NCBI GenBank assembly: GCA_024400545.1
Contig: JAKSMO010000016.1
Span: forward strand, 1-43,254
Length of the DNA stretch: 43,254 nucleotides
Direction of reading: 5' to 3'
Source: Bacteroidales bacterium
GTDB lineage: Bacteria; Bacteroidota; Bacteroidia; Bacteroidales; P3
Numbering within the stretch: position 1 is the first letter of the stretch; each line of letters opens with the position of its first letter. Under the pieces are notes generated by a model that was not told the origin of the DNA, did no database searches, and saw only the letters and a list, made by a program, of their open reading frames with translations. Both the position numbers and the translations under genes were made by a program. This document shows, in pieces, positions 10,308 through 21,705 of this stretch.

Positions 10308-10973
10308 ATGAAGTTTATTCTCTTTGCGTTAGCTATAATCTCATCCCTGTCGGCCATGGCCCAATACGACCGTGCCGTAGTGTCGCTCACCCGACTGGAC
10401 TATGTTTATTACAACATCGATAACCCCATGTCGGTAGCCGTTCCCGGACTTTTGCCCCAGGATATCGAGGTGTCCGTAGGCGAAGATCGGGCCTTTCTCA
10501 ACCGCGACCCCGACGGCAGCAATCGCAACGACCTCCTCATCCGCCCCAAAGATTCCACCGGCACCATCACCGTGCATATCGATGAGCGCATCAATCCCAA
10601 CCGCACCCGCTCACGCGGCATACTGCGTTTCCGAGTGCTCACCCTCCCCAACCCCACACTCTATCTAGGATATGTGCACCAGGGCGACACAGTGAAACTC
10701 AACGACCTCCTAACCAAAGGCTATATCCAGGTAAAGGCGCTCTACAACGATTTCAACTTCCCAATTTCCGAGCCCCAGGTGCTCAGCTATCAGCTCAATA
10801 GGTCGCGATATTTCAACCTGCCTATCGAGGTAGAAGGGTCAAAACTAACCACCCAAGCAAAAGAGATGCTCAGCCAGGCACATCTCGACGAGACCATCTA
10901 TTTAGAGAATGTCCGTGTCCGTCTTCCCGACGACCGCATCGTCACCCTCAAGGCCGAATTCCCCCTCAAATAA
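10308..10973 (+). CDS. Secreted GldM C-terminal-domain-like protein
   Basis: 221 residues with signal peptide MKFILFALAIISSLSAMAQ. The mature sequence (AVVSLTRLDYVYYNIDNPMSVAVPGLLPQDIEVSV, then RGILRFRVLTLPNPTLYLG, then LNRSRYFNLPIEVEGSKLTTQAKEML) resembles the third and fourth periplasmic domains of GldM, the T9SS motor protein, without the transmembrane and helical N-terminal parts. It is encoded 9 bases after the T9SS cargo gene, so it probably belongs with it, perhaps as a stand-alone periplasmic adaptor. Similarity is judged by pattern; the job is inferred. Confidence 0.7.
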   Translation: MKFILFALAIISSLSAMAQYDRAVVSLTRLDYVYYNIDNPMSVAVPGLLPQDIEVSVGEDRAFLNRDPDGSNRNDLLIRPKDSTGTITVHIDERINPNRTRSRGILRFRVLTLPNPTLYLGYVHQGDTVKLNDLLTKGYIQVKALYNDFNFPISEPQVLSYQLNRSRYFNLPIEVEGSKLTTQAKEMLSQAHLDETIYLENVRVRLPDDRIVTLKAEFPLK

Positions 10974-11032: not shown

Positions 11033-11127
11033 CATCCTACGGTCATCTTACGGTTATTCTACGGAGTACCCCCCCTCTCGTTTAGCGTACCATCACCGTA
11101 GGATGACCGTAGAATCACCGCAGAATC
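11033..11127. repeat. 11-bp iterons in inverted arrangement (3 + 3)
   Basis: The right arm holds three consecutive units: ACCGTAGGATG (11095), ACCGTAGAATC (11106) and ACCGCAGAATC (11117). The left arm, read on the other strand, holds CCGTAGAATA, ACCGTAAGATG and ACCGTAGGATG (11064 down to 11033). The arms could pair over a ~30-base loop. The cluster lies between the ends of two converging genes. Confidence 0.75.
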
Positions 11128-11601: not shown

Positions 11602-11645
11602 AATCCTACACAACGGCAGTCGGGGAAACATCCGCCGGAACTGAA
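11602..11645. repeat. Island repeat, copy A (forms the 3' end of the STAS-like gene)
   Basis: Contains ACACAACGGCAGTCGGGG, then AACATCCGCCGGAACTGAA. The same core recurs at 14052, 15937 and 17092 in the same orientation. Here the repeat encodes the last ~12 residues (SSVPADVSPTAVV) and the TAG stop of the STAS-like gene. Confidence 0.75.
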
Positions 11646-11941
11646 CTTTGCTGTTTCAGCACCTTGTATCTTCTTTGCAGTGCTACCAACACACTTTTTT
11701 CAGCCATCGGATTAAGTCCTTTGAATGTCGTGAGCTTCTTCAGTTCTTCAAGCGGATAATCAAGCAACAATTTAGCAATGCACTCATCGGCAAAAGAGTT
11801 TGTCACCACATTCACTCCTGAGAAATCCAAAACCACAAATTCGCCTTTGACCAGCAATGGATGAATTAGATTGCGCAACTTCTCTCCCATTATCTGTGTA
11901 CCGAAATCGGTGCCATAATCTAAAAACTTAAACTCTACCAT
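11606..11941 (-). CDS. STAS-like domain protein (DUF4325)
   Basis: 111 residues. The pattern MVEFKFLDYGTDFGTQIMGEKLRNLI, FVVLDFSGVNVVTNSFADECIAKLL is that of the DUF4325 STAS-like family: one small alpha/beta domain with a strand-loop-helix where STAS proteins bind partners. It is probably a regulatory or scaffold subunit. Last gene of an operon after the ATPase and the PIN-like gene (11-base gap). The final ~12 residues come from the dispersed island repeat and are not conserved domain sequence, so the gene's end was altered by, or captured, the repeat. Confidence 0.75.
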   Translation of the reverse strand: MVEFKFLDYGTDFGTQIMGEKLRNLIHPLLVKGEFVVLDFSGVNVVTNSFADECIAKLLLDYPLEELKKLTTFKGLNPMAEKSVLVALQRRYKVLKQQSSVPADVSPTAVV

Positions 11942-11952
11942 AATTCATGATT

Positions 11953-12489
11953 TCATTTTCTATTCCTTCTTCTTGGTGGAGCTGGCATGCCTAATTGCTG
12001 AAGATCTACTTCTTCATACGATTTTAACAATGCGTCTGCCGTCAATATTTCCACTTGAAATCCTGCAGATCTGTAAGCTGTTGCTACATCAAGAATACTG
12101 ACATCACCAAGAGAATGCTTACCTGTTTCATTCATTGACATCCAACGGCCAACTACGTCGCGAAGATGATTTCCCTCCCATAAAGCATTCTGACTGCTAA
12201 AAGCTGCCCAAGGAGAATCGCCATCAATGCTTTGCTGGATTTTTTCACCAAACTCTTTTACGTATGGCATTCTGTCTCGGCCTTTAATCTGCGTAATGTG
12301 GTTTCCAGTCTCAATAATTGATGCTAAAGGAAGCACTAACAGAGTACCGTCTGCTATCTCTAATTCAATCTTTGCATTGACGCGTTCATAGTCCCAACGG
12401 TCATTATCCGATCCTGCTACTTCCATCTCAGGAACCTTCATCCAGACACAAGCCAGACAAGTGTCCACAATAAGTACTTTCTTGCTCAT
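11953..12489 (-). CDS. PIN-like nuclease domain protein
   Basis: 178 residues. It has the PIN layout: Asp9 in KVLIVDTCLA, Glu60 in LVLPLASIIETGNHI, Asp129/Asp134 in SLGDVSILDVATAY, and Asp152 in EILTADALLKSYE. Together these would form the metal site of an RNase-like active centre. The tail PPRRRNRK is very basic. It lies 6 bases downstream of the ATPase gene and 11 bases upstream of the STAS-like gene, so the three form one transcript. In context it is the likely effector of an ATPase-controlled defence operon. The family call is by motif order, not by a search. Confidence 0.7.
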   Translation of the reverse strand: MSKKVLIVDTCLACVWMKVPEMEVAGSDNDRWDYERVNAKIELEIADGTLLVLPLASIIETGNHITQIKGRDRMPYVKEFGEKIQQSIDGDSPWAAFSSQNALWEGNHLRDVVGRWMSMNETGKHSLGDVSILDVATAYRSAGFQVEILTADALLKSYEEVDLQQLGMPAPPRRRNRK

Positions 12490-12495
12490 ATCTTT

Positions 12496-13680
12496 TTATA
12501 AGTCATTGTTTGTCATCATGTCTCCGACGCTCTTAGAAGCCATCAAACGCGCCAGTTGTTCATTCTCTTCAAGAAGATGGATGTCTGTGCATCCATTTTC
12601 GTCATTACGTTTTATATATGAGATAAAAGGAATCATTTGAGGTCCGAGTTCATCTACAAATGTTGCATTATGTGTCGTGCAAATGATGTCAAGCTGTTTC
12701 TGCTTGCCAATCTCTTTTAGCATTTTTACCAAATCCTTTGCACGCGATGGATGAACACCCTTATCCAATTCCTCTAACAAAATAAGAGCCTTATCTTCAG
12801 CGGTTACCAGCATAGCAATGATTCCAGCAAATCGCAAGGTGCCATCACTCATGCCTAAGGCACTTTGTTCTTGGGTATGATTAGCTGTCCATTCTTCCGT
12901 ACAGAATAACATAGCCTTATCTGTCATAGGAATCTTATCTGCTCTAATGCTCTTAATGTCTCTGTCTGGCAGAGGCTTAAGATATTTCAGGATAGCCTCG
13001 TATGTACTAGCCTGAGATTTCTCATCCAAGTTTGCTAAATAACCAGCCAAATCCGACGCGTCTTCTGCTATAGTTTTTGATAGTGGAGCAAAGTCTCTCA
13101 TTCGCTCTGGTATTGGATTGGACATACGAATCTTTTTGAGGTTATCAACAACTGCCAGAACTGAGTCTTTTATTCTGCGTACACAGTTCACGTATTCAAT
13201 CTGTGACAAAACAGATGTTTTTGCTGAGAAATTCTGATAGCGAGGTTTTCCCTCTGTGTATAATGCCACAGAGACAAGCGATTTGTTCATCTTGTCCAGT
13301 TCTTTTCTTTCAAACAAAACAAGATTTTTCTTGGTCGTATTAAGTATGAGGCTTTCGTCTTTTATATAGACATTTCTCTGTTCGTCCAATGCGAGCGCTA
13401 CGTCAAAAATCAGTTGCTCTTTACTCTTGTCACCTTCCATAGTGATGGTAAGATTGCACAATTGTTCTCCTCTTCGGATAATACCCTCTGCGCCACCACG
13501 TACATTCTTTACTATGTCCACAATATCAACAGGGGATGCCAAGGCACTCAGCAACTTTAGCGCATCGAATATATTTGATTTTCCACTTGCATTTGTTCCT
13601 ATTATCACCGTAATAGGATCTATGAAGAGCGTCGCATCAGAAAAGCTCTTCCAATTACGTAGTCTTAATTCGGTAATCAT
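12496..13680 (-). CDS. AAA/ABC-type ATPase (SMC/OLD-like, AAA_21 type)
   Basis: 394 residues. Walker A is GTNASGKS (28-35) after the typical start MITELRLRNWKSFSDATLFI. The ABC-like signature is GMSDGTLRF (~280), Walker B is ALILLEELDKGVHP (~298), and the H-loop is in TTHNATF. The region between is helical, too short for a long SMC coiled coil. Such stand-alone ATPases often act as sensors in phage defence (as in OLD, PARIS, Septu and retron partners). No Toprim domain is fused to it, unlike OLD. First gene of the ATPase-PIN-STAS operon. No clear promoter was found; the upstream 450 bases are full of island repeats. Confidence 0.85.
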   Translation of the reverse strand: MITELRLRNWKSFSDATLFIDPITVIIGTNASGKSNIFDALKLLSALASPVDIVDIVKNVRGGAEGIIRRGEQLCNLTITMEGDKSKEQLIFDVALALDEQRNVYIKDESLILNTTKKNLVLFERKELDKMNKSLVSVALYTEGKPRYQNFSAKTSVLSQIEYVNCVRRIKDSVLAVVDNLKKIRMSNPIPERMRDFAPLSKTIAEDASDLAGYLANLDEKSQASTYEAILKYLKPLPDRDIKSIRADKIPMTDKAMLFCTEEWTANHTQEQSALGMSDGTLRFAGIIAMLVTAEDKALILLEELDKGVHPSRAKDLVKMLKEIGKQKQLDIICTTHNATFVDELGPQMIPFISYIKRNDENGCTDIHLLEENEQLARLMASKSVGDMMTNNDL

Positions 13681-13695
13681 ATCTTATTTCTTAAA

Positions 13696-13869
13696 TCATT
13701 GATCATCGTTGCTTTTAAGTCCTTTAATAAGCTTCACGAGAGGATATAACTTTGGATAGTTCGCCCATACAACATCGACAAGGCCAATGGTAAGCCATTG
13801 GATTGGAAAATGGATGTCGGTGGAACATCCACAGGGACTAAAGTCCGTGTCAAATTTGGATACATCATA
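13696..13869 (-). pseudogene. Open-frame remnant upstream of the ATPase gene
   Basis: A ~57-codon open stretch without a start codon reads ...WLTIGLVDVVWANYPKLYPL, VKLIKGLKSNDDQ, then stop. It looks protein-like at its end, but its upstream part is made of island repeat B and it begins after a TAA. Probably the tail of a gene destroyed by repeat insertion. No family recognised. Confidence 0.35.
13810..13842. repeat. Island repeat, copy B (diverged)
   Basis: ATGGATGTCGGTGGAACATC then CACAGGGACTAAA, matching the second half of the repeat core at 14052 and 15937. Contains a small palindrome GGATGT/ACATCC. Confidence 0.55.
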
Positions 13870-13918
13870 TTATATTAACGATTCCTAGTCATTATTATTG
13901 TGTCTTCCACTGCATCTG

Positions 13919-13971
13919 TTGCAGCGGATTTGCAATCCGATGCAACTTACTATTAGGATTTGCTATCCGAA
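13919..13971. repeat. Palindromic words related to the island repeat
   Basis: CGGATTTGCAATCCG (13925) and GGATTTGCTATCC (13957) are short palindromes of the same GGATT-x-AATCC type found in copies C and D. The stretch is otherwise AT-rich and gene-free. Confidence 0.55.
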
Positions 13972-14003
13972 AACATATTATTCCTTATATTATTAAATAT
14001 TAT

Positions 14004-14090
14004 CTGCGGATTACAAATCCTTATAGTACACAATGTCGGATTGCAAATCCGACACAACGACAGTCAAGGGGAACATCCGCTGGGACGGAA
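14004..14090. repeat. 87-bp direct repeat, copy C (left of the HNH/methyltransferase cassette)
   Basis: Matches 15889-15975 at 79 of 87 positions, same orientation. It holds two palindromes (GGATTACAAATCC and GTCGGATTGCAAATCCGAC) followed by the island repeat core. It ends 41 bases past the stop codon of the HNH gene. Confidence 0.9.
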
Positions 14091-14130
14091 ACATTCCAAA
14101 GTTGAAACCGAACATTCACAAGGGCTGGAC

Positions 14131-14841
14131 TTACTTTTCTTTAATAAAATTAGAAATCAAATCTTTGATAGTTTTTTCAGCTTCATCTATACCAACCAAA
14201 CCAATCAGTCTGTTATAATCCTCAATTTCATCATCTGTAAAAGTAACAACAATTTGACGCATTTCTTTCCCCGCAACATGAGAATAATTATCCGGATAAG
14301 CCCAAAAACAATTCTTACAAAATTCAATATCTTTTACCGTCCAATTTATGCAATGCTCACAAGTCCAAGATTTAGCTCTATTTGCAGAAGGACTGAGTAA
14401 CATATAACAATCAATGTTATCTGCACACTCTCCTCCGATCTCATAGGGCACTCTGTGATCTATTTGCAAAAGTCGTTCTTCCATCGGCTGAAGATAAACA
14501 AAACAAACAGGCCCATACTTATCAACAAGACTCTTCTTTAAGGCAGATGATAAAGCCGATCTCCCTGCAACCTTTGAAACTTTATTGTCAAAAATAACAG
14601 GAGTTCCAAACTTATATGCAGCAATACTTCTTCCATCCGATGCCTTAACTCGATACGTCACAAGATTCACACCACGTTCACGCACATCTCTTGCAGCACG
14701 AGGAGCATGTTCATAGCCATACTTAGTTGAGAGTTCTTCTGTCGTAATATAGCCATATTTAATAATATGCTGTATCACCGTTGATGGTCGCTTATCTTTT
14801 ATTGAATTCAGTTTATCCAGTTCTTTTTTTGTCAGCTTCAT
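14131..14841 (-). CDS. HNH endonuclease with winged-helix N-terminus, probable type II restriction enzyme
   Basis: 236 residues from ATG 14841, chosen because it overlaps the methyltransferase stop as ATGA; the longer frame to 14889 would run inside that gene. Residues ~1-80 look like a winged helix (VIQHIIKYGYITTEELSTKYGY, AARDVRERGVNLVTYRV). The nuclease core is a beta-beta-alpha-metal HNH: QIDHRVPYEIGGE (Asp128-His129), LLSPSANRAKSW (Asn154), with two zinc pairs CEHC (161-164) and CKNC (175-178). Pairing with a D12 adenine methyltransferase marks it as the cutting half of a restriction-modification system. Recognition site unknown. Base composition is clearly more AT-rich than the flanking core genes. 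Confidence 0.85.
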   Translation of the reverse strand: MKLTKKELDKLNSIKDKRPSTVIQHIIKYGYITTEELSTKYGYEHAPRAARDVRERGVNLVTYRVKASDGRSIAAYKFGTPVIFDNKVSKVAGRSALSSALKKSLVDKYGPVCFVYLQPMEERLLQIDHRVPYEIGGECADNIDCYMLLSPSANRAKSWTCEHCINWTVKDIEFCKNCFWAYPDNYSHVAGKEMRQIVVTFTDDEIEDYNRLIGLVGIDEAEKTIKDLISNFIKEK

Positions 14842-15740
14842 ATTGAAATTTCTAATTGTTTGTAAACCATTGGCCTCACTACTTCGCATAAATTTTGACT
14901 TAAATAGAGTGCCTCAATTGTTGTTTCCTTTTTTCCCAATAAAATGCTTTGACTAGACAAACCTGCATTTAGCATTATCTTTTTTAAACCCAACTCACTA
15001 GGAAGGTCAACACCATAGTGCTTATTTCCACATGACCCATCATAACTGATAATGTAATCAATACCACGCTCATTAAGGTCAGCTATGCATTCAACAAAAT
15101 CATTATAATCAATTCCTGAAAAGTAACGGCTATCCCTTGAAGCGCAAACGCCCTGATATGGTGGATCCATATATACAATATCTCCAGGAACTGCTCTTTT
15201 TGTCACTTCTCGATAATCGACGGACGTGAAATCAGTTTTACCTTTAAGAAAACTTGAAATCAAATATACATTTCTAGCAAGATTTTTGGGATTTGTCCCC
15301 ATCCTTCGTTTATCGGGTGATTGATTAAAATGTCCGGATGTACTATATCTTACAGATCCTTTAACACAACGAGCTAACAAATAAAGCATATTTGCCGCAC
15401 ATTTATCACCATTGTTAAAATCATCACGAACCTTATAAAAATGATTAACACTCCCACCCGCAAAATTCAACTGTTCTGTCCAAACTTGTGTGTATTCTTC
15501 AATAAGTTGCTGAGGATTAGTAATTGCCTCTTTTAAAATATTTACTAAAGGTTCGTTCAGATCATTTAGGTGATACCTATCCGCCCTATGTTGTGCAGCT
15601 ACAGCTATTGTGATTGCAGCCATTCCGGCAAAGGGCTCAATCAACCTATTAAACCTAATAGGTAAATATTGTAGTATTTGGGGTGCTAGATTCCTCTTCG
15701 AACCCTGATACTGAACTATATGTGGAACACTTCCATTCAT
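14838..15740 (-). CDS. D12-class (Dam-like) N6-adenine DNA methyltransferase
   Basis: 300 residues. It transfers methyl from S-adenosylmethionine to adenine N6. Seen: YQGSKRNLAPQI (~11-22), motif I EPFAGMAAITIAVA (35-48), the helical target-recognition region, and catalytic motif IV DPPY (192-195) in IVYMDPPYQGV. Length is normal for the class. Its stop overlaps the HNH nuclease start by 4 bases, so methylation is translated first. A good promoter lies just upstream. AT-rich and bracketed by direct repeats, so probably acquired as one unit. Confidence 0.92.
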   Translation of the reverse strand: MNGSVPHIVQYQGSKRNLAPQILQYLPIRFNRLIEPFAGMAAITIAVAAQHRADRYHLNDLNEPLVNILKEAITNPQQLIEEYTQVWTEQLNFAGGSVNHFYKVRDDFNNGDKCAANMLYLLARCVKGSVRYSTSGHFNQSPDKRRMGTNPKNLARNVYLISSFLKGKTDFTSVDYREVTKRAVPGDIVYMDPPYQGVCASRDSRYFSGIDYNDFVECIADLNERGIDYIISYDGSCGNKHYGVDLPSELGLKKIMLNAGLSSQSILLGKKETTIEALYLSQNLCEVVRPMVYKQLEISI

Positions 15741-15761
15741 TGCATATCAGACAAAAAAATA

Positions 15762-15790
15762 CAAATTTATATATATCAACTATTTAGCAA
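15762..15790 (-). promoter_or_regulatory. Promoter of the HNH restriction-modification operon, TTG-N18-TAAATTTG
   Basis: On the minus strand TTG (15790-15788), 18 bases, TAAATTTG (15769-15762), about 22 bases from the ATG. A second -7-like box TATTTTTG lies at 15822-15815 without a matching TTG. Confidence 0.6.
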
Positions 15791-15888
15791 ATATTATTAC
15801 TATAAAAAACATTGCAAAAATACAAAAAAAAGGTGACATAAAAAAATTACGTTTCATTGGATACAAATCCGACTCAACGCAATATTGC

Positions 15889-15975
15889 CTGCGGATTACA
15901 AATCCTTATAGTAAACAGTGTCGGATTGCAAATCCGACACAACGGCAGTCGAGGGGAACATCTACAGGGACAGAA
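15889..15975. repeat. 87-bp direct repeat, copy D (right of the HNH/methyltransferase cassette)
   Basis: Same orientation as copy C. The pair brackets a ~1.8-kb block holding only the adenine methyltransferase and HNH genes. Copy D also ends 36 bases past the stop codon of the next cassette's last gene (DUF2442). A partial extra palindromic word (ATACAAATCCGACTCAAC) lies just left of it at 15861-15878. Confidence 0.9.
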
Positions 15976-16010
15976 GAATCAACAATGTCCATAAAAATGG
16001 GAACGAGCAA

Positions 16011-16271
16011 TCAATCACAGAGTTCCAAATCTCCAGCATAGAGAGCCTCTATGGGGAAACTGAGGTCGGCATGTTTGCCCCAGATTAGGTTTCCGCAGCG
16101 GATGGAGAACTGCTTGAATAGCGAAGGCTTCTTATATTTATTATACTGTGGATGAGGGTGGTTTTCTATAAAAGCACCAAAATCTATCAGCTGTGAGGTC
16201 TTGTCGTTAAACCACACTCGCAAGGATAGACCATCGGTGTATTCGGCATGAGTGACAAATATATTTTCCAT
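16011..16271 (-). CDS. DUF2442 domain protein
   Basis: 86 residues from ATG 16271 (MENIFVTHAEYTDGLSLRVWF). The DUF2442 pattern is complete: a beta hairpin giving NDKTSQLIDFGAFIENHPHP, then FKQFSIRCGNLIWGKHADLSFPIEALY, where the WGKHADLSFP box is the family hallmark. DUF2442 genes usually sit beside a DUF4160 gene. The pair is often suspected to be toxin-antitoxin-like, but no activity is established. Here the partner upstream is internally deleted. Cytoplasmic. Confidence 0.85.
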   Translation of the reverse strand: MENIFVTHAEYTDGLSLRVWFNDKTSQLIDFGAFIENHPHPQYNKYKKPSLFKQFSIRCGNLIWGKHADLSFPIEALYAGDLELCD

Positions 16272-16275
16272 AATA

Positions 16276-16461
16276 TTACAGTTTGGTTTTAATATCAGTG
16301 CAACGAACTCTTTTCTTATAAACAAAGAAATTCACCCACTTGTCAACTATATTCTGCCAATATTTCTCAATAAATAAACGAGCGGTCTTATCATCCTTAG
16401 TTGAAAGTGGATTTGAATAGAACGAGAAGATAAAACCGAAGTATGTAAAAATATCTGGCAT
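16276..16461 (-). pseudogene. DUF4160 protein with the middle deleted
   Basis: 61 codons in one open frame. The first 17 residues (MPDIFTYFGFIFSFYSN) are the DUF4160 start. The next ~40 (ARLFIEKYWQNIVDKWVNFF, then VYKKRVRCTDIKTKL) look like the far C-terminus of longer DUF4160 proteins. The usual central block with the H.HV motif is absent, as if an in-frame deletion had joined the ends. The partner DUF2442 gene follows after 4 bases and is intact. It could still be made as a small protein; I call it a likely pseudogene. Confidence 0.6.
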
Positions 16462-16667
16462 AAATCTACTTTTTCTTTATAACGCAAGTTTAAGAATAAT
16501 ATTGCATCCACTTCAACATTAATCCCAGCTTAAATTCAACATCGGACTATATGCATTGCACAAGTGAGAGCATAAGCGAATCCCAAGTTTCGTTTATGCC
16601 GAACTCCAGCAATGACAGCGAAGCTAATCCGACACCGAAAAGTGTTCGGAACGGTACTGCGTCAGCC

Positions 16668-16957
16668 AAGTGTCGGAGACACTACTCCACAGGCCTAAGC
16701 CTGTGCTTAACCCCGCACATGAGAAATGGGCAGACCGCAGGTCACTACATTCTCATGTGTGGGGGATGGAAGTGGTAGATGGATGTTCCCCGGAGGGGGA
16801 CTTGAATAGAGGCTTCTTCCGTAGGGGCTGGTTGCCATTCAAGTGTGCCTCCTGCACACTATGCCACTGAGACTTAAACCCCCACAGAGGTTTTGCGTAA
16901 AACCTCTGTGGGGTTTCGCACCGACACAGGGTCGGCGGAGCAGTGTCTCCGACACTT
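16668..16957. repeat. Structured 290-bp element with 21-bp inverted ends and internal hairpins
   Basis: Ends 16668-16688 and 16937-16957 are inverted copies at 20 of 21 positions; each also contains a small palindrome AGTGTC-GGA-GACACT. Inside: ACAGGC/GCCTGT (16690-16705), CCCCGCACATGAGAA pairing with TTCTCATGTGTGGGG (16711-16764), CTTGAAT/ATTCAAG (16801-16843), GTGTGC/GCACAC (16843-16859), and a 14-bp stem CCCACAGAGGTTTT/AAAACCTCTGTGGG (16881-16912). This could be a MITE or a structured RNA. No reverse transcriptase or transposase adjoins it. Confidence 0.7.
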
Positions 16958-17091
16958 TGATTGTCGCAAACAAGAGCCTGAATCATCATCAATGCACTTG
17001 CACCAGGCCATCAAACATTGCGAAGAGCGAGTGCCGAACTAAGCTTGCTCAAGTTATGCCGAGTCGCAACAATGTCAGCACAGCTAATCCG

Positions 17092-17131
17092 ACACAATGG
17101 TGGTCGAGGGGGAACATCCGCAGGGGCGGAA
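17092..17131. repeat. Island repeat, copy E (right after the cytosine-type cassette)
   Basis: ACACAATGGTGGTCGAGGGG then GAACATCCGCAGGGGCGGAA, the same core as copies A, C and D with one extra G, ending 16 bases past the REase stop codon. Confidence 0.75.
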
Positions 17132-17146
17132 GGGACGGATAGAATC

Positions 17147-18301
17147 TTATTGCTTGATTAATCGGTAGCCCTCCACGAACCACTTTTTGAAAGTGTCTTT
17201 CCCGTACACTTCGAAGAACGGCTTCTTCTCGCCTACTCCGTTTTCGACTATAAGTCCATTGATTATATCGTTGGTTTCACATAGCCATGAGTCAACCCAA
17301 TCGTGACTGTTGGTAAGTGCGGGGCGGTATTCGAGTATATCTAACAACAAATCATTAGGACTGCATCGAATGCCATCAACATCATCCTTCAGCTCCAATA
17401 TAGTGCCGATAATTTTGGGAATGGTCCATTCCAATTTTTTTTCATCACCTTTGGTGTCAACCAGCGTGTCAAATCGGCCTCCCGCAGTCCACATATCTCT
17501 AAAACAATGACACACAACAGAATGTTTTGCACACAACCACATCACCGCTATATCATATTCACGACGAATTACTCCAGGAAACAGAACCAACATTTCTGCT
17601 TGAATGCGGCCTTTCTCTGCCGATGTAAGATTGCCCCACATTCTAAGTACAGGCGAAGACACATTCTCTTCTCTTTCAGTCCCCAGCCACCAAGGCATTT
17701 CATGAACGCCCTTTGCCTTAGCTTTTTGTCGGTAAAAGTCACGAACCTTATCAACCGAATGCTCATTGTTTCTCAATTCATCGTATGATATTCCCATCTG
17801 GTCGAAGATTGTCTGCCCCTTGGGCAAATCCATGTCTATCAAATAACGTGGCGAATGCGTGACTGCTATGTCATAAAGGCAACTTTCATACGGCTTGCAT
17901 CTGAACTGAGGAACAGCACCACCAAGCTTGCCGAAGAGCATGTAGATGTTCTCAACATCATCCACTCTTGTAGATTCAACGATACTACTTCCTGTAGAAC
18001 GCCAGTTGTCGTCTTTTGTAGTTTTCACCTCGACCCCATAATACCTATTGGCAATAATATCAGGAAATTTGTGTCCGGATACGAGGATTATATCGTCAGG
18101 GGGGAAAGGGGTGCTTGGTGCAACTTCTCGCAGAACTGAAAGTGCTTTATCCTCCATCGGAGTGCCATTGAGCTTGCGGAAGGCACTTGGAACGCGCTTG
18201 GCTTCTTCGTTGAGCACATATTCTGTCTTGGCCATAAAATCAGCGAAAGCCTCATTGGCTTGCTTCGTACTGGCGTTACGGATGGCAATAATATTTTCCA
18301 T
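17147..18301 (-). CDS. Type II restriction endonuclease (PD-ExK), partner of the cytosine methyltransferase
   Basis: 384 residues. The catalytic core is near the N-terminus: FPDIIANRYYGVEVKTTKDD gives PD (Asp81) and ExK (Glu91, Lys93). Upstream residues (MEDKALSVLREVAPSTPFPP) form the usual helix before the core. The remainder (~120-384) is probably recognition and dimer structure and is not recognised further. The general shape resembles NgoBV/NlaIV-like enzymes, but the site is unknown. It begins 3 bases after the methyltransferase stop codon, so both are co-transcribed, with the methyltransferase first. Confidence 0.85.
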   Translation of the reverse strand: MENIIAIRNASTKQANEAFADFMAKTEYVLNEEAKRVPSAFRKLNGTPMEDKALSVLREVAPSTPFPPDDIILVSGHKFPDIIANRYYGVEVKTTKDDNWRSTGSSIVESTRVDDVENIYMLFGKLGGAVPQFRCKPYESCLYDIAVTHSPRYLIDMDLPKGQTIFDQMGISYDELRNNEHSVDKVRDFYRQKAKAKGVHEMPWWLGTEREENVSSPVLRMWGNLTSAEKGRIQAEMLVLFPGVIRREYDIAVMWLCAKHSVVCHCFRDMWTAGGRFDTLVDTKGDEKKLEWTIPKIIGTILELKDDVDGIRCSPNDLLLDILEYRPALTNSHDWVDSWLCETNDIINGLIVENGVGEKKPFFEVYGKDTFKKWFVEGYRLIKQ

Positions 18302-18304
18302 AGC

Positions 18305-19663
18305 TTAATGTTTGAAATAGGTGTCCCACAAAGATTGTATACGCATGGCAATGTTATATGCAAGTATAGGCGGAACAGCATTCCCAATCACCTTGTATGC
18401 TCCCGACGAGTTGAGCGACAATGTACCGTTTCCGCTCTTCTTTTTCCACACAAACGGGTAGTCGGGGGGGAATGTCTGAATCAGGGCGCACTCTCTAGGT
18501 GTCAGCCTGCGCTCTATCAGACCTCTGTTAAGTTCGTCAAAATTCTTTCCTCCGTGTTCTGCGGAGAGCCTGCGAAACTCGATATTTCCATGATGTTCCG
18601 ATCGGATAGTCGGGCCAAGATCATGAAGCTTTATCTCTGTTTGCCCTTGACAATGTGAACCCATATATTTGGCTTTTGAATAAATGCGCTGGGCAGGGTC
18701 ATTCGACTCGCCGGGTTCTCGCAGCCCTTCAAATACATCCGCACAAACTACAGGCTCCGTCAACTCGCTGTTTTTCGTAGTATAGGCATGCGTTTTGGGT
18801 GGATACGGATTGTATTCTTCGAGCACATCCTCCTGAGATAAAATTTCCACCATTTCGGGAGTTAGGCACTTTTTTCGTATACCGATAAATATCACCCTTT
18901 CTCTTGTTTCGGGCACGCCATAGTCTCCTGCATGAAGCACTTGGGGATTGAGCACAATATATCCGTCACCATCAGCATGGGAAAAATCGTCTTGGATAAT
19001 CTTTTTTACGTCACCCAAGTTCATCAATCCCTTTACATTCTCGGCTATAAATACTTTGGGCTTGGTGATGTCAATCACTTGCTTCATCCAAAAGTACAAC
19101 TTGCCCCTTGTTTCCTCCGTCGGCACATCTGCATTTCGCATCTGGCCATTATGGTCTTTACTAGACTCAAATCCCATCCGCTTGCCAGCGACAGAAAAAT
19201 CCTGGCATGGGAAGCCGCCAGTCACCACATCGATGTCTTGCGGAAAAACATCAGCACCTGCATTGTGCGCTTTTACCAAATCAACGATACTGTCAAGGTG
19301 GTAAATTTCGCTACCATAATCAAAGCGTTCAAAGAAGTTCGTCCAAGCGGACTGTGCATCTTTCAAAATATCATTCGCAAAGCACAACTGGAAGCGTGTC
19401 GGCTTGACCTTAATCCAATTGCTGTTGATTTTCCGTTCCAACCAATCGGTATTATGACCGATTGATTTCTGGTGACACAGAAAACCTCCCTCAAAGCCCA
19501 AATCCATACCGCCACAACCCGAAAAGAGAGAGAGCACACGGAGGTCTTTTACGTTGGTCTTGTTCCGAGTGGCAAAGTAAATAGATGTCTGATAATCGGA
19601 GACAATACTCTCGTCAAATTCCGACGGATTAGCTTCGGGATATGTTACGTTATTGTGTTTCAT
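18305..19663 (-). CDS. DNA (cytosine-5-)-methyltransferase
   Basis: 452 residues with all main C5-MTase motifs: I LSLFSGCGGMDLGFEGG (~44-60), IV TGGFPCQDFSVAGKRMG with catalytic Cys153, VI VFIAENVKGL (~205), VIII GVPETRERVIFIG, then the target-recognition region, IX FRRLSAEHGGKNFDELNRGL/RLTPRECALIQTFPPDYPF, and X YKVIGNAVPPILAYNIA. It protects the host site cut by the adjacent nuclease. A ~70-residue insert between motifs I and IV (SNWIKVKPTRF..FPQDIDVV) is longer than in the smallest members. A -7 box TAACTTTG lies 38 bases upstream. Confidence 0.95.
   Translation of the reverse strand: MKHNNVTYPEANPSEFDESIVSDYQTSIYFATRNKTNVKDLRVLSLFSGCGGMDLGFEGGFLCHQKSIGHNTDWLERKINSNWIKVKPTRFQLCFANDILKDAQSAWTNFFERFDYGSEIYHLDSIVDLVKAHNAGADVFPQDIDVVTGGFPCQDFSVAGKRMGFESSKDHNGQMRNADVPTEETRGKLYFWMKQVIDITKPKVFIAENVKGLMNLGDVKKIIQDDFSHADGDGYIVLNPQVLHAGDYGVPETRERVIFIGIRKKCLTPEMVEILSQEDVLEEYNPYPPKTHAYTTKNSELTEPVVCADVFEGLREPGESNDPAQRIYSKAKYMGSHCQGQTEIKLHDLGPTIRSEHHGNIEFRRLSAEHGGKNFDELNRGLIERRLTPRECALIQTFPPDYPFVWKKKSGNGTLSLNSSGAYKVIGNAVPPILAYNIAMRIQSLWDTYFKH

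Positions 19664-20043: not shown

Positions 20044-21705
<1,662 letters not shown>

Follow-up and report, generated by a model that had tools for sequence, protein, structure and literature searches.

The stretch of DNA analysed here, termed the window, comprises 43,254 nucleotides and represents contig C14 of G000, the draft genome of a Bacteroidales bacterium (GenBank assembly GCA_024400545.1, contig JAKSMO010000016.1; 2.64 Mb in 105 contigs, 96% complete with 8% contamination). Between a GldM-domain gene and groEL it harbors an array of accessory genes, several of which are trailed by copies of one palindromic repeat, designated REP-B (REP, repetitive extragenic palindrome), the subject of this study. 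Throughout, G, C and L numbers denote genomes compared, contigs and excised locus stretches, respectively. Close comparisons were made among three related metagenome-assembled genomes (MAGs; G000, G020 and G032) and wider ones across 59 genomes of the genus.

The array is bordered on the left by the gene of a GldM_3rd-domain protein (10308-10973, plus strand), whose homologues in G020 and G032 lie close to repeats, and on the right by groEL (20044-21678, minus strand). Between them, yjbR is followed by four modules on the minus strand. The first encodes a STAS-like DUF4325 protein (11606-11941; PF14213, 59.5 bits), PDC-M07B (11953-12489; E 1.4e-39) and the AAA_21 ATPase PDC-M07A (12496-13680; AAA_21 by Pfam, PADLOC E 3.4e-113), the latter two being candidate defence proteins according to PADLOC. 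The second consists of a type II restriction nuclease-like protein (14131-14889; PADLOC 'REase_II', E 3.8e-47) and a D12/Dam-type adenine methyltransferase (14838-15740), the third of a DUF2442 protein (16011-16325) and a DUF4160 homologue (16276-16461), and the fourth of another type II restriction nuclease-like protein (17147-18301; PADLOC 'REase_II', E 5e-36) and a Dcm-type C5 cytosine methyltransferase (18305-19663). An initial annotation, made from the sequence alone, had named a STAS protein, an ATPase and adenine and cytosine methyltransferases, and DUF4325, AAA_21, D12 and C5 were indeed all matched above the Pfam cut-off. Its PIN, HNH and PD-ExK assignments found no support in Pfam, which returned nothing for them at E 0.01; PADLOC gave PDC-M07B and the two 'REase_II' proteins. 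DUF2442 was matched, yet with 22.2 bits it stayed below the Pfam cut-off of 23.9. The DUF4160 frame, which had been called a remnant, carries an in-frame internal deletion relative to its G020 homologue, which keeps this stretch; its partner DUF2442 is of equal length in the window and in G020.

Allowing up to three mismatches, AATCCGACACAACGGCAGTCG was found at 11602, 14046, 15931 and 17086, always on the plus strand, and GGGGAACATCCGCAGGGACGGAA at 14068, 15953 and 17109; for both motifs the mean in 100 shuffled sequences was 0.00. The genes trailed by the repeat are all encoded on the minus strand, with stops at 11606, 14131, 16011 and 17147. Both the proposed occurrence of one repeat 3' of each of four minus-strand modules and the proposed stop-to-repeat distances (overlapping, 41, 36 and 16 bp) were thereby confirmed. 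The copies differ in extent. A REP-B remnant with tail (11602-11645, plus strand) overlaps the stop of the STAS-like gene, and the C-terminal residues of the DUF4325 protein are encoded by this tail; the G032 homologue ends with KQQSC. The copy 41 bp past the first nuclease stop (14005-14090, plus strand) comprises a REP-B 3' half with two palindromes and the tail, and is a member of a pair, since its inverted partner, another REP-B half, lies at 13906-13970 on the minus strand; the pair resembles a bacterial interspersed mosaic element (BIME) or a REP doublet forming hairpins (REPIN). A further 3' half with tail follows the DUF2442 gene (15890-15975, plus strand), and a half REP-B with tail follows the second nuclease gene (17074-17131, plus strand). 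The diverged copy reported at 13810 is present, but it is weak and represents a degenerate tail only (13796-13842, plus strand, 10.8 bits).

Two more repeats, beyond those claimed initially, were detected. Repeat C (16990-17090, plus strand) is frequently joined to REP-B at GCTAATCC. Element A (16658-16957, plus strand) is 300 bp long, lies between two accessory modules and contains no transposase in its window copy. DNA matching element A flanks an IS200-type (IS, insertion sequence) Y1_Tnp gene of 149-162 aa on both sides in G020 and G032; this gene is different from the transposase gene flanked by REP-B that is described below. Downstream of yjbR, at 11034-11115, a long imperfect palindrome with many CTACGG/CCGTAG motifs was observed. 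Neither the window nor nine REP loci contained an Rfam match at gathering score.

Hairpin anatomy, dispersal and the flanked transposase

A full 3' half of REP-B is composed of a short palindrome (GGATT-CAAATCC type), TTATAGTA, a long palindrome (GTGTCGGATTGCAAATCCGACAC) and a tail of ~40 nt containing GAACATCC...GGAC. A mirror-image half is often located upstream, as at 13906-13970 in the window. The hairpin arms are near-perfect palindromes. When 36 copies were aligned, 97.8% of the cells of the long stem were paired compared with 93.3% in shuffles, and two-sided changes were counted in 34 cells of the hairpin, compared with 8.9 in shuffles.

With a covariance model of the repeat, 16 matches on 8 contigs were obtained in G000 at E 0.01, 23 in G020 and 15 in G032; contig C22 carries four matches inside 2.2 kb. 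The copies are dispersed and mostly intergenic, and occur as singles and as inverted pairs. At E 0.001 at least one match was present in 30 of the 59 genus genomes. Since copies are spread over G000 and over genomes of the genus, REP-B constitutes a dispersed family rather than a trait of defence islands.

In relatives, REP-B is associated with a gene for a REP-associated tyrosine transposase (RAYT, also TnpA-REP), here RAYT-B. Near-full-length RAYT-B, a Y1-type protein of ~189 aa, is encoded in three of the 59 genomes (G054, G005 and G028), and in all three inverted REP-B hairpins are located on both sides of the gene; in G017 REP-B hairpins lie beside a RAYT-B fragment at a contig end. Among the matches listed, G005 (at least 79) and G028 (at least 77) have the most REP matches of all 59 genomes, and G054 has 32. 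The G054 protein is 189 aa long and contains the motifs NHIH, WQ and YIHQNP. Inverted REPs on both flanks are described for RAYT genes in the parts of PMC2817692 considered here. The TnpA-REP proteins of subclass 2.6 are characterized, in the corresponding parts of PMC6006769, by NH[LIV]H, WQ and YIH[QN]NP and a length of ~179 aa, and are found chiefly in Bacteroidetes, with atypical secondary structures at their flanks.

Orientation of the repeat tail and placement of the repeats

To describe the position of REP-B relative to genes, 40 rows with a tail (profile end ≥74) were collected from G000, G020 and G032. Two rows below 15 bits were dropped (window 13796 and L070 3022), which left 38 rows, in 34 of which a gene 3' end adjoined the tail; after rows with a common tail-side gene had been merged, 33 sites remained. 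At 30 of these 33 sites the tail points toward the 3' end of the neighboring gene, with a median tail-side distance to the stop of 55 bp. On the opposite side a 3' end was found in 17 of 30 cases (p 0.003 for tail vs opposite side), and among spacer sides of the same loci in 115 of 234 (49%; binomial p 4e-7 for tail vs control). Open reading frames (ORFs) of ≥60 aa were accepted for the test and genes of ≥100 aa for the control spacers. The failing sites are L036, L151 and L072; a fourth row, L147:5695, also failed and was merged with a passing one. At L072 the gene caller had displaced a DUF1232 gene that does face the REP, and the site was left uncorrected and counted as a failure. In G054, G028 and G005, 31 REP clusters from 20 stretches were bordered by genes on either side; 10 of these gene pairs were convergent, 18 tandem and 3 divergent, compared with 14, 30 and 14 for spacers of the same stretches, and all these numbers are small. 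The parts of PMC3733652 considered here state that REPs are mostly located downstream of coding regions and may provide a stop codon.

The genes trailed by REP-B are not limited to accessory ones. In G020 a REP follows a terminator-like inverted repeat behind groEL, whereas none is found behind groEL of the window; the G020 copy is not part of the orientation set, because its profile ends at 73. REPs are also located at the 3' ends of the RrnaAD (rRNA dimethylase) gene in G054 and of the YicC gene in G005. Like groEL, rRNA dimethylase and yicC are core genes. An even spread of repeats that takes in core genes, named by the initial annotation as evidence against a modular array, is thus seen in part, in relatives. 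The genes downstream of groEL differ throughout the genus, so that variability at this position is not peculiar to species bearing the REP.

Considering its anatomy, the paired changes in its hairpin, the flanking of RAYT-B in sister genomes, its dispersal in G000 and the orientation of its tail, REP-B very probably represents a REP/BIME family, i.e. non-autonomous single-strand hairpins of a RAYT resembling subclass 2.6, mixed with a transposase-less IS200-type relative (element A); the repeats would have been placed by the RAYT and the modules acquired by horizontal transfer. A RAYT, perhaps lost from G000 or missed in its assembly, would have placed REPs behind genes, where we propose they were tolerated because neither an ORF nor a promoter was interrupted. 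The accessory modules would have arrived by ordinary horizontal transfer at a variable spot between groEL and the GldM-domain gene. REPs behind several modules, together with other shared spacers, could then have been used as seams for homologous recombination. Thus, a known kind of repeat is found here, and that several of its copies lie behind modules of a single defence array is taken to be coincidental; the repeats are no part of the defence mechanism.

Several observations weigh against this assignment. In the hairpin alignment two measures did not stand out: the number of pairs with two-sided changes, which was 4 of 10 compared with 2.2 in shuffles (a value reached by 22 of 500 shuffles), and the number of pair types (7 vs 6.6). 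The GTAG (GT[AG]G) head was absent from the hairpin foot in the REP-B alignment, which excludes canonical REP types only, since subclass 2.6 is described with atypical structures (PMC6006769, in the parts considered). The third motif of RAYT-B varies (YIHMNP in G005, YVHSNP in G028), so that one of three proteins has the subclass 2.6 form, and the Pfam scores of the three proteins (22.6, 20.9 and 23.4 bits) lie around the cut-off of 23. G000 itself contained no Y1_Tnp match in Pfam and no RAYT-B match in protein searches; the mobilizer is therefore deduced from relatives. Furthermore, G042 has 33 REP matches among those listed and no RAYT-B match. The genes in the orientation analysis were taken from a crude longest-ORF caller, as AT-rich accessory genes escaped a codon-usage finder. 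Neither the tail nor its orientation is mentioned in the portion of the REP/TnpA-REP literature covered. Finally, 23 of 113 ends of shared segments lie within 40 bp of a REP, which significantly exceeds the 6.4 obtained for random positions but not the 22.6 for random intergenic ones (p 0.49).

Gene content around the repeats

The strongest competitor of RAYT placement followed by ordinary transfer holds that REPs are preferred crossover points at which whole accessory modules are swapped between loci and strains, and that REP-to-REP recombination gave rise to the array. Exchange between REP-like palindromes had been suggested initially, and the repeat is REP-like and gene content does change at such sites in relatives. 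A repeat block shared by G000 with G020 over 683 bp and with G032 over 561 bp (560-680 bp) is adjoined on its tail side by three different genes, a restriction gene in G000, a 117-aa ORF in G020 and a STAS-like gene in G032. A peptidase M54 module is located at groEL in G020 and at another locus in G032 (95.3% identity), and all four of its ends lie within 40 bp of REPs; an AAA_14/DUF4143 gene present at different loci of G000 and G020 (91.3%) has two of four ends at REPs. A 197-aa gene together with its REP is inserted at one place in G000 and at another in G020, and at that locus of G032 (73% complete) it was not found. A block of REP-B and element A is preceded in G000 by a 118-aa gene that Pfam does not match, but by a DUF1232 gene in both other genomes, a difference that may reflect independent insertion.

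Two observations were made at loci of this type. In G000 an AAA-ATPase/PDDEXK_9 gene is present in tandem duplicate (L035:1-2790), the second copy being cut by the contig end, and in both copies the junction with a REP falls at one and the same point in comparison with G032. In G020, behind DUF2442, a fragment (L069:5745-5798) corresponds to the beginning of DUF4325 (window 11904-11956, 89%) and is likely what remains of a module whose window and G032 versions are longer.

A further change of content was found at one locus on contigs C38, C98 and C32 of G000, G020 and G032, respectively (L144:2983-7745, L152:1-5579 and L155:2464-6382). A lipocalin gene on the left (present in G000 and G032 but truncated in G020) and a leader sequence, leader D, are common, as are the REP on the right and parts of its flank; the 11 ORFs between leader D and REP show no cross-genome similarity at E 0.001. 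They encode unnamed small proteins, a DUF3825/OST-HTH operon, and a radical SAM protein with a Cys/Gly-rich 78-aa protein, which has no Pfam match and looks like the precursor of a ribosomally synthesized and post-translationally modified peptide. The locus is untidy: in G020 1.6 kb separate the left gene from leader D, in G000 the REP is preceded by another repeat block and by an ORF on the minus strand, and the right-hand repeat blocks are ordered differently in G000 and G020.

These cases are consistent with REP-to-REP exchange. However, the shared-segment ends are not enriched at REPs (23 vs 22.6 for intergenic points), and for this reason exchange specific to REPs is held to be possible only, with the balance somewhat against it. 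In addition, the right-hand blocks at the C38/C98/C32 locus are rearranged, several of the differences might instead stem from independent insertion of REPs behind different genes, and the comparison covers three related MAGs only. The results suggest that REPs serve as seams at some loci, in a manner that is not REP-specific. An island order fixed in all relatives, which would speak against module exchange, was not observed, as content varies among relatives; no true empty site was detected for the array of the window. In the titles and abstracts searched, a range outside which preprints and most subscription papers fell, no report linked REPs with the exchange of defence modules in Bacteroidota. 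The C38/C98/C32 locus, where leader D and the REP enclose unrelated genes in three genomes, makes REP-guided gene exchange testable.

Alternatively, the repeats could be functional 3' elements, such as mRNA stabilizers or barriers to read-through, selected behind expressed genes and without any role in mobility. This would account for the 3' location and the orientation of REP-B, and an effect of REPs on transcripts is suggested in the parts of PMC3733652 considered. Nevertheless it appears unlikely, as sister species differ behind the same gene (a REP at groEL in G020, none in G000) and one copy overlaps a coding end.

Leader D itself is a common sequence of ~265 nt in front of accessory genes at nine REP loci (L143:3954-4220, L034:6032-6294, L072:5016-5280, L036:2520-2784 and others) and is absent from the window. 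It contains GTATATTTGCA, which, going by Bacteroidetes promoters, we take to be promoter-like. One copy folded with a z-score of -5.54 relative to shuffles, and an alignment of 41 copies contained 22 consensus pairs, 5 of them with two-sided changes. BLAST matches, many of them short, were obtained in 50 of the 59 genus genomes, including nine in G000 (C2, C11, C37, C38, C49, C62, C63, C65 and C97), and a model of the 3' part matched 75 of 149 genomes of the family in 6 of 12 genera. No Rfam family was matched at gathering score; when one copy and its upstream palindrome were searched at E up to 10, weak eukaryotic families only were returned. In 29 of 30 mapped loci leader D shares its strand with the gene that follows, the 30th (L195) being cut by a contig end. 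In G000 four of the nine copies (C2, C37, C62 and C97) belong to operons with a REP at their end, and in a fifth case (C38) the REP comes after a minus-strand ORF. CTATAG-type palindromes were seen upstream of leader D at three loci. Within the range of literature given above, no paper closely matching multi-copy leader RNAs of Bacteroidales was returned. Some accessory operons of this lineage might be cassettes with two seams, in which leader D and the REP tail stay and the cargo is replaced, the window array being a leaderless version with the REP seam only; we regard this as rather improbable.

Comparison with known systems

Integron-like cassettes, in which each module with its 3' repeat would be excisable and a tyrosine recombinase would use the repeat as an attC-like site, were proposed initially and are rejected here as highly improbable. 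Extrahelical bases and R boxes are characteristic of attC sites. As in integron arrays, short modules of one to three genes share one orientation, and behind each lies a structured repeat whose own orientation is constant. In contrast to integron arrays, an integron integrase (TIGR02249) scored above cut-off in none of the 59 genomes (weaker tyrosine-recombinase matches were obtained in all 59), the repeats are near-perfect palindromic hairpins that flank RAYT genes in relatives, and core genes are also trailed there. Moreover, no REP was detected in the 6-7 kb surrounding homologues, from other species, of the Dcm-type methylase with nuclease (G034) and of DUF2442 (G033 and G037); the repeat is therefore no integral part of these modules, the only two compared. 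REP repeats behind defence genes should thus not be taken for integron-like cassettes.

The array resembles defence islands that combine PDC-M07 and type II restriction systems, as two restriction-modification pairs adjoin PDC-M07A and PDC-M07B. It differs from them in that the modules are separated by REPs, and nothing links these REPs to defence itself. Element A, which in G020 and G032 borders a Y1_Tnp gene on either side, comes closest to IS200/IS605-type sequences and their transposase-less derivatives; the window copy, lacking a transposase and located between accessory modules, is a putative mobile element.

The closest match for REP-B is provided by the REP/BIME (REPIN) sequences of subclass 2.6, as far as they are described in the parts of PMC6006769 considered. 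In both cases multi-copy intergenic palindromes occur as singles and inverted pairs, and a REP-flanked Y1 transposase gene with NH[LIV]H, WQ and YIH[QN]NP is found in Bacteroidota. In contrast to this description, REP-B has two palindromes per half and no GTAG head, the third motif deviates in two of the three RAYT-B proteins, and a conserved tail of ~40 nt facing gene 3' ends is added. REP-B and RAYT-B thus extend the known systems by a REP family of uncultured Bacteroidales and the associated RAYT, the element being distinguished by a conserved tail and its strong orientation to gene 3' ends.

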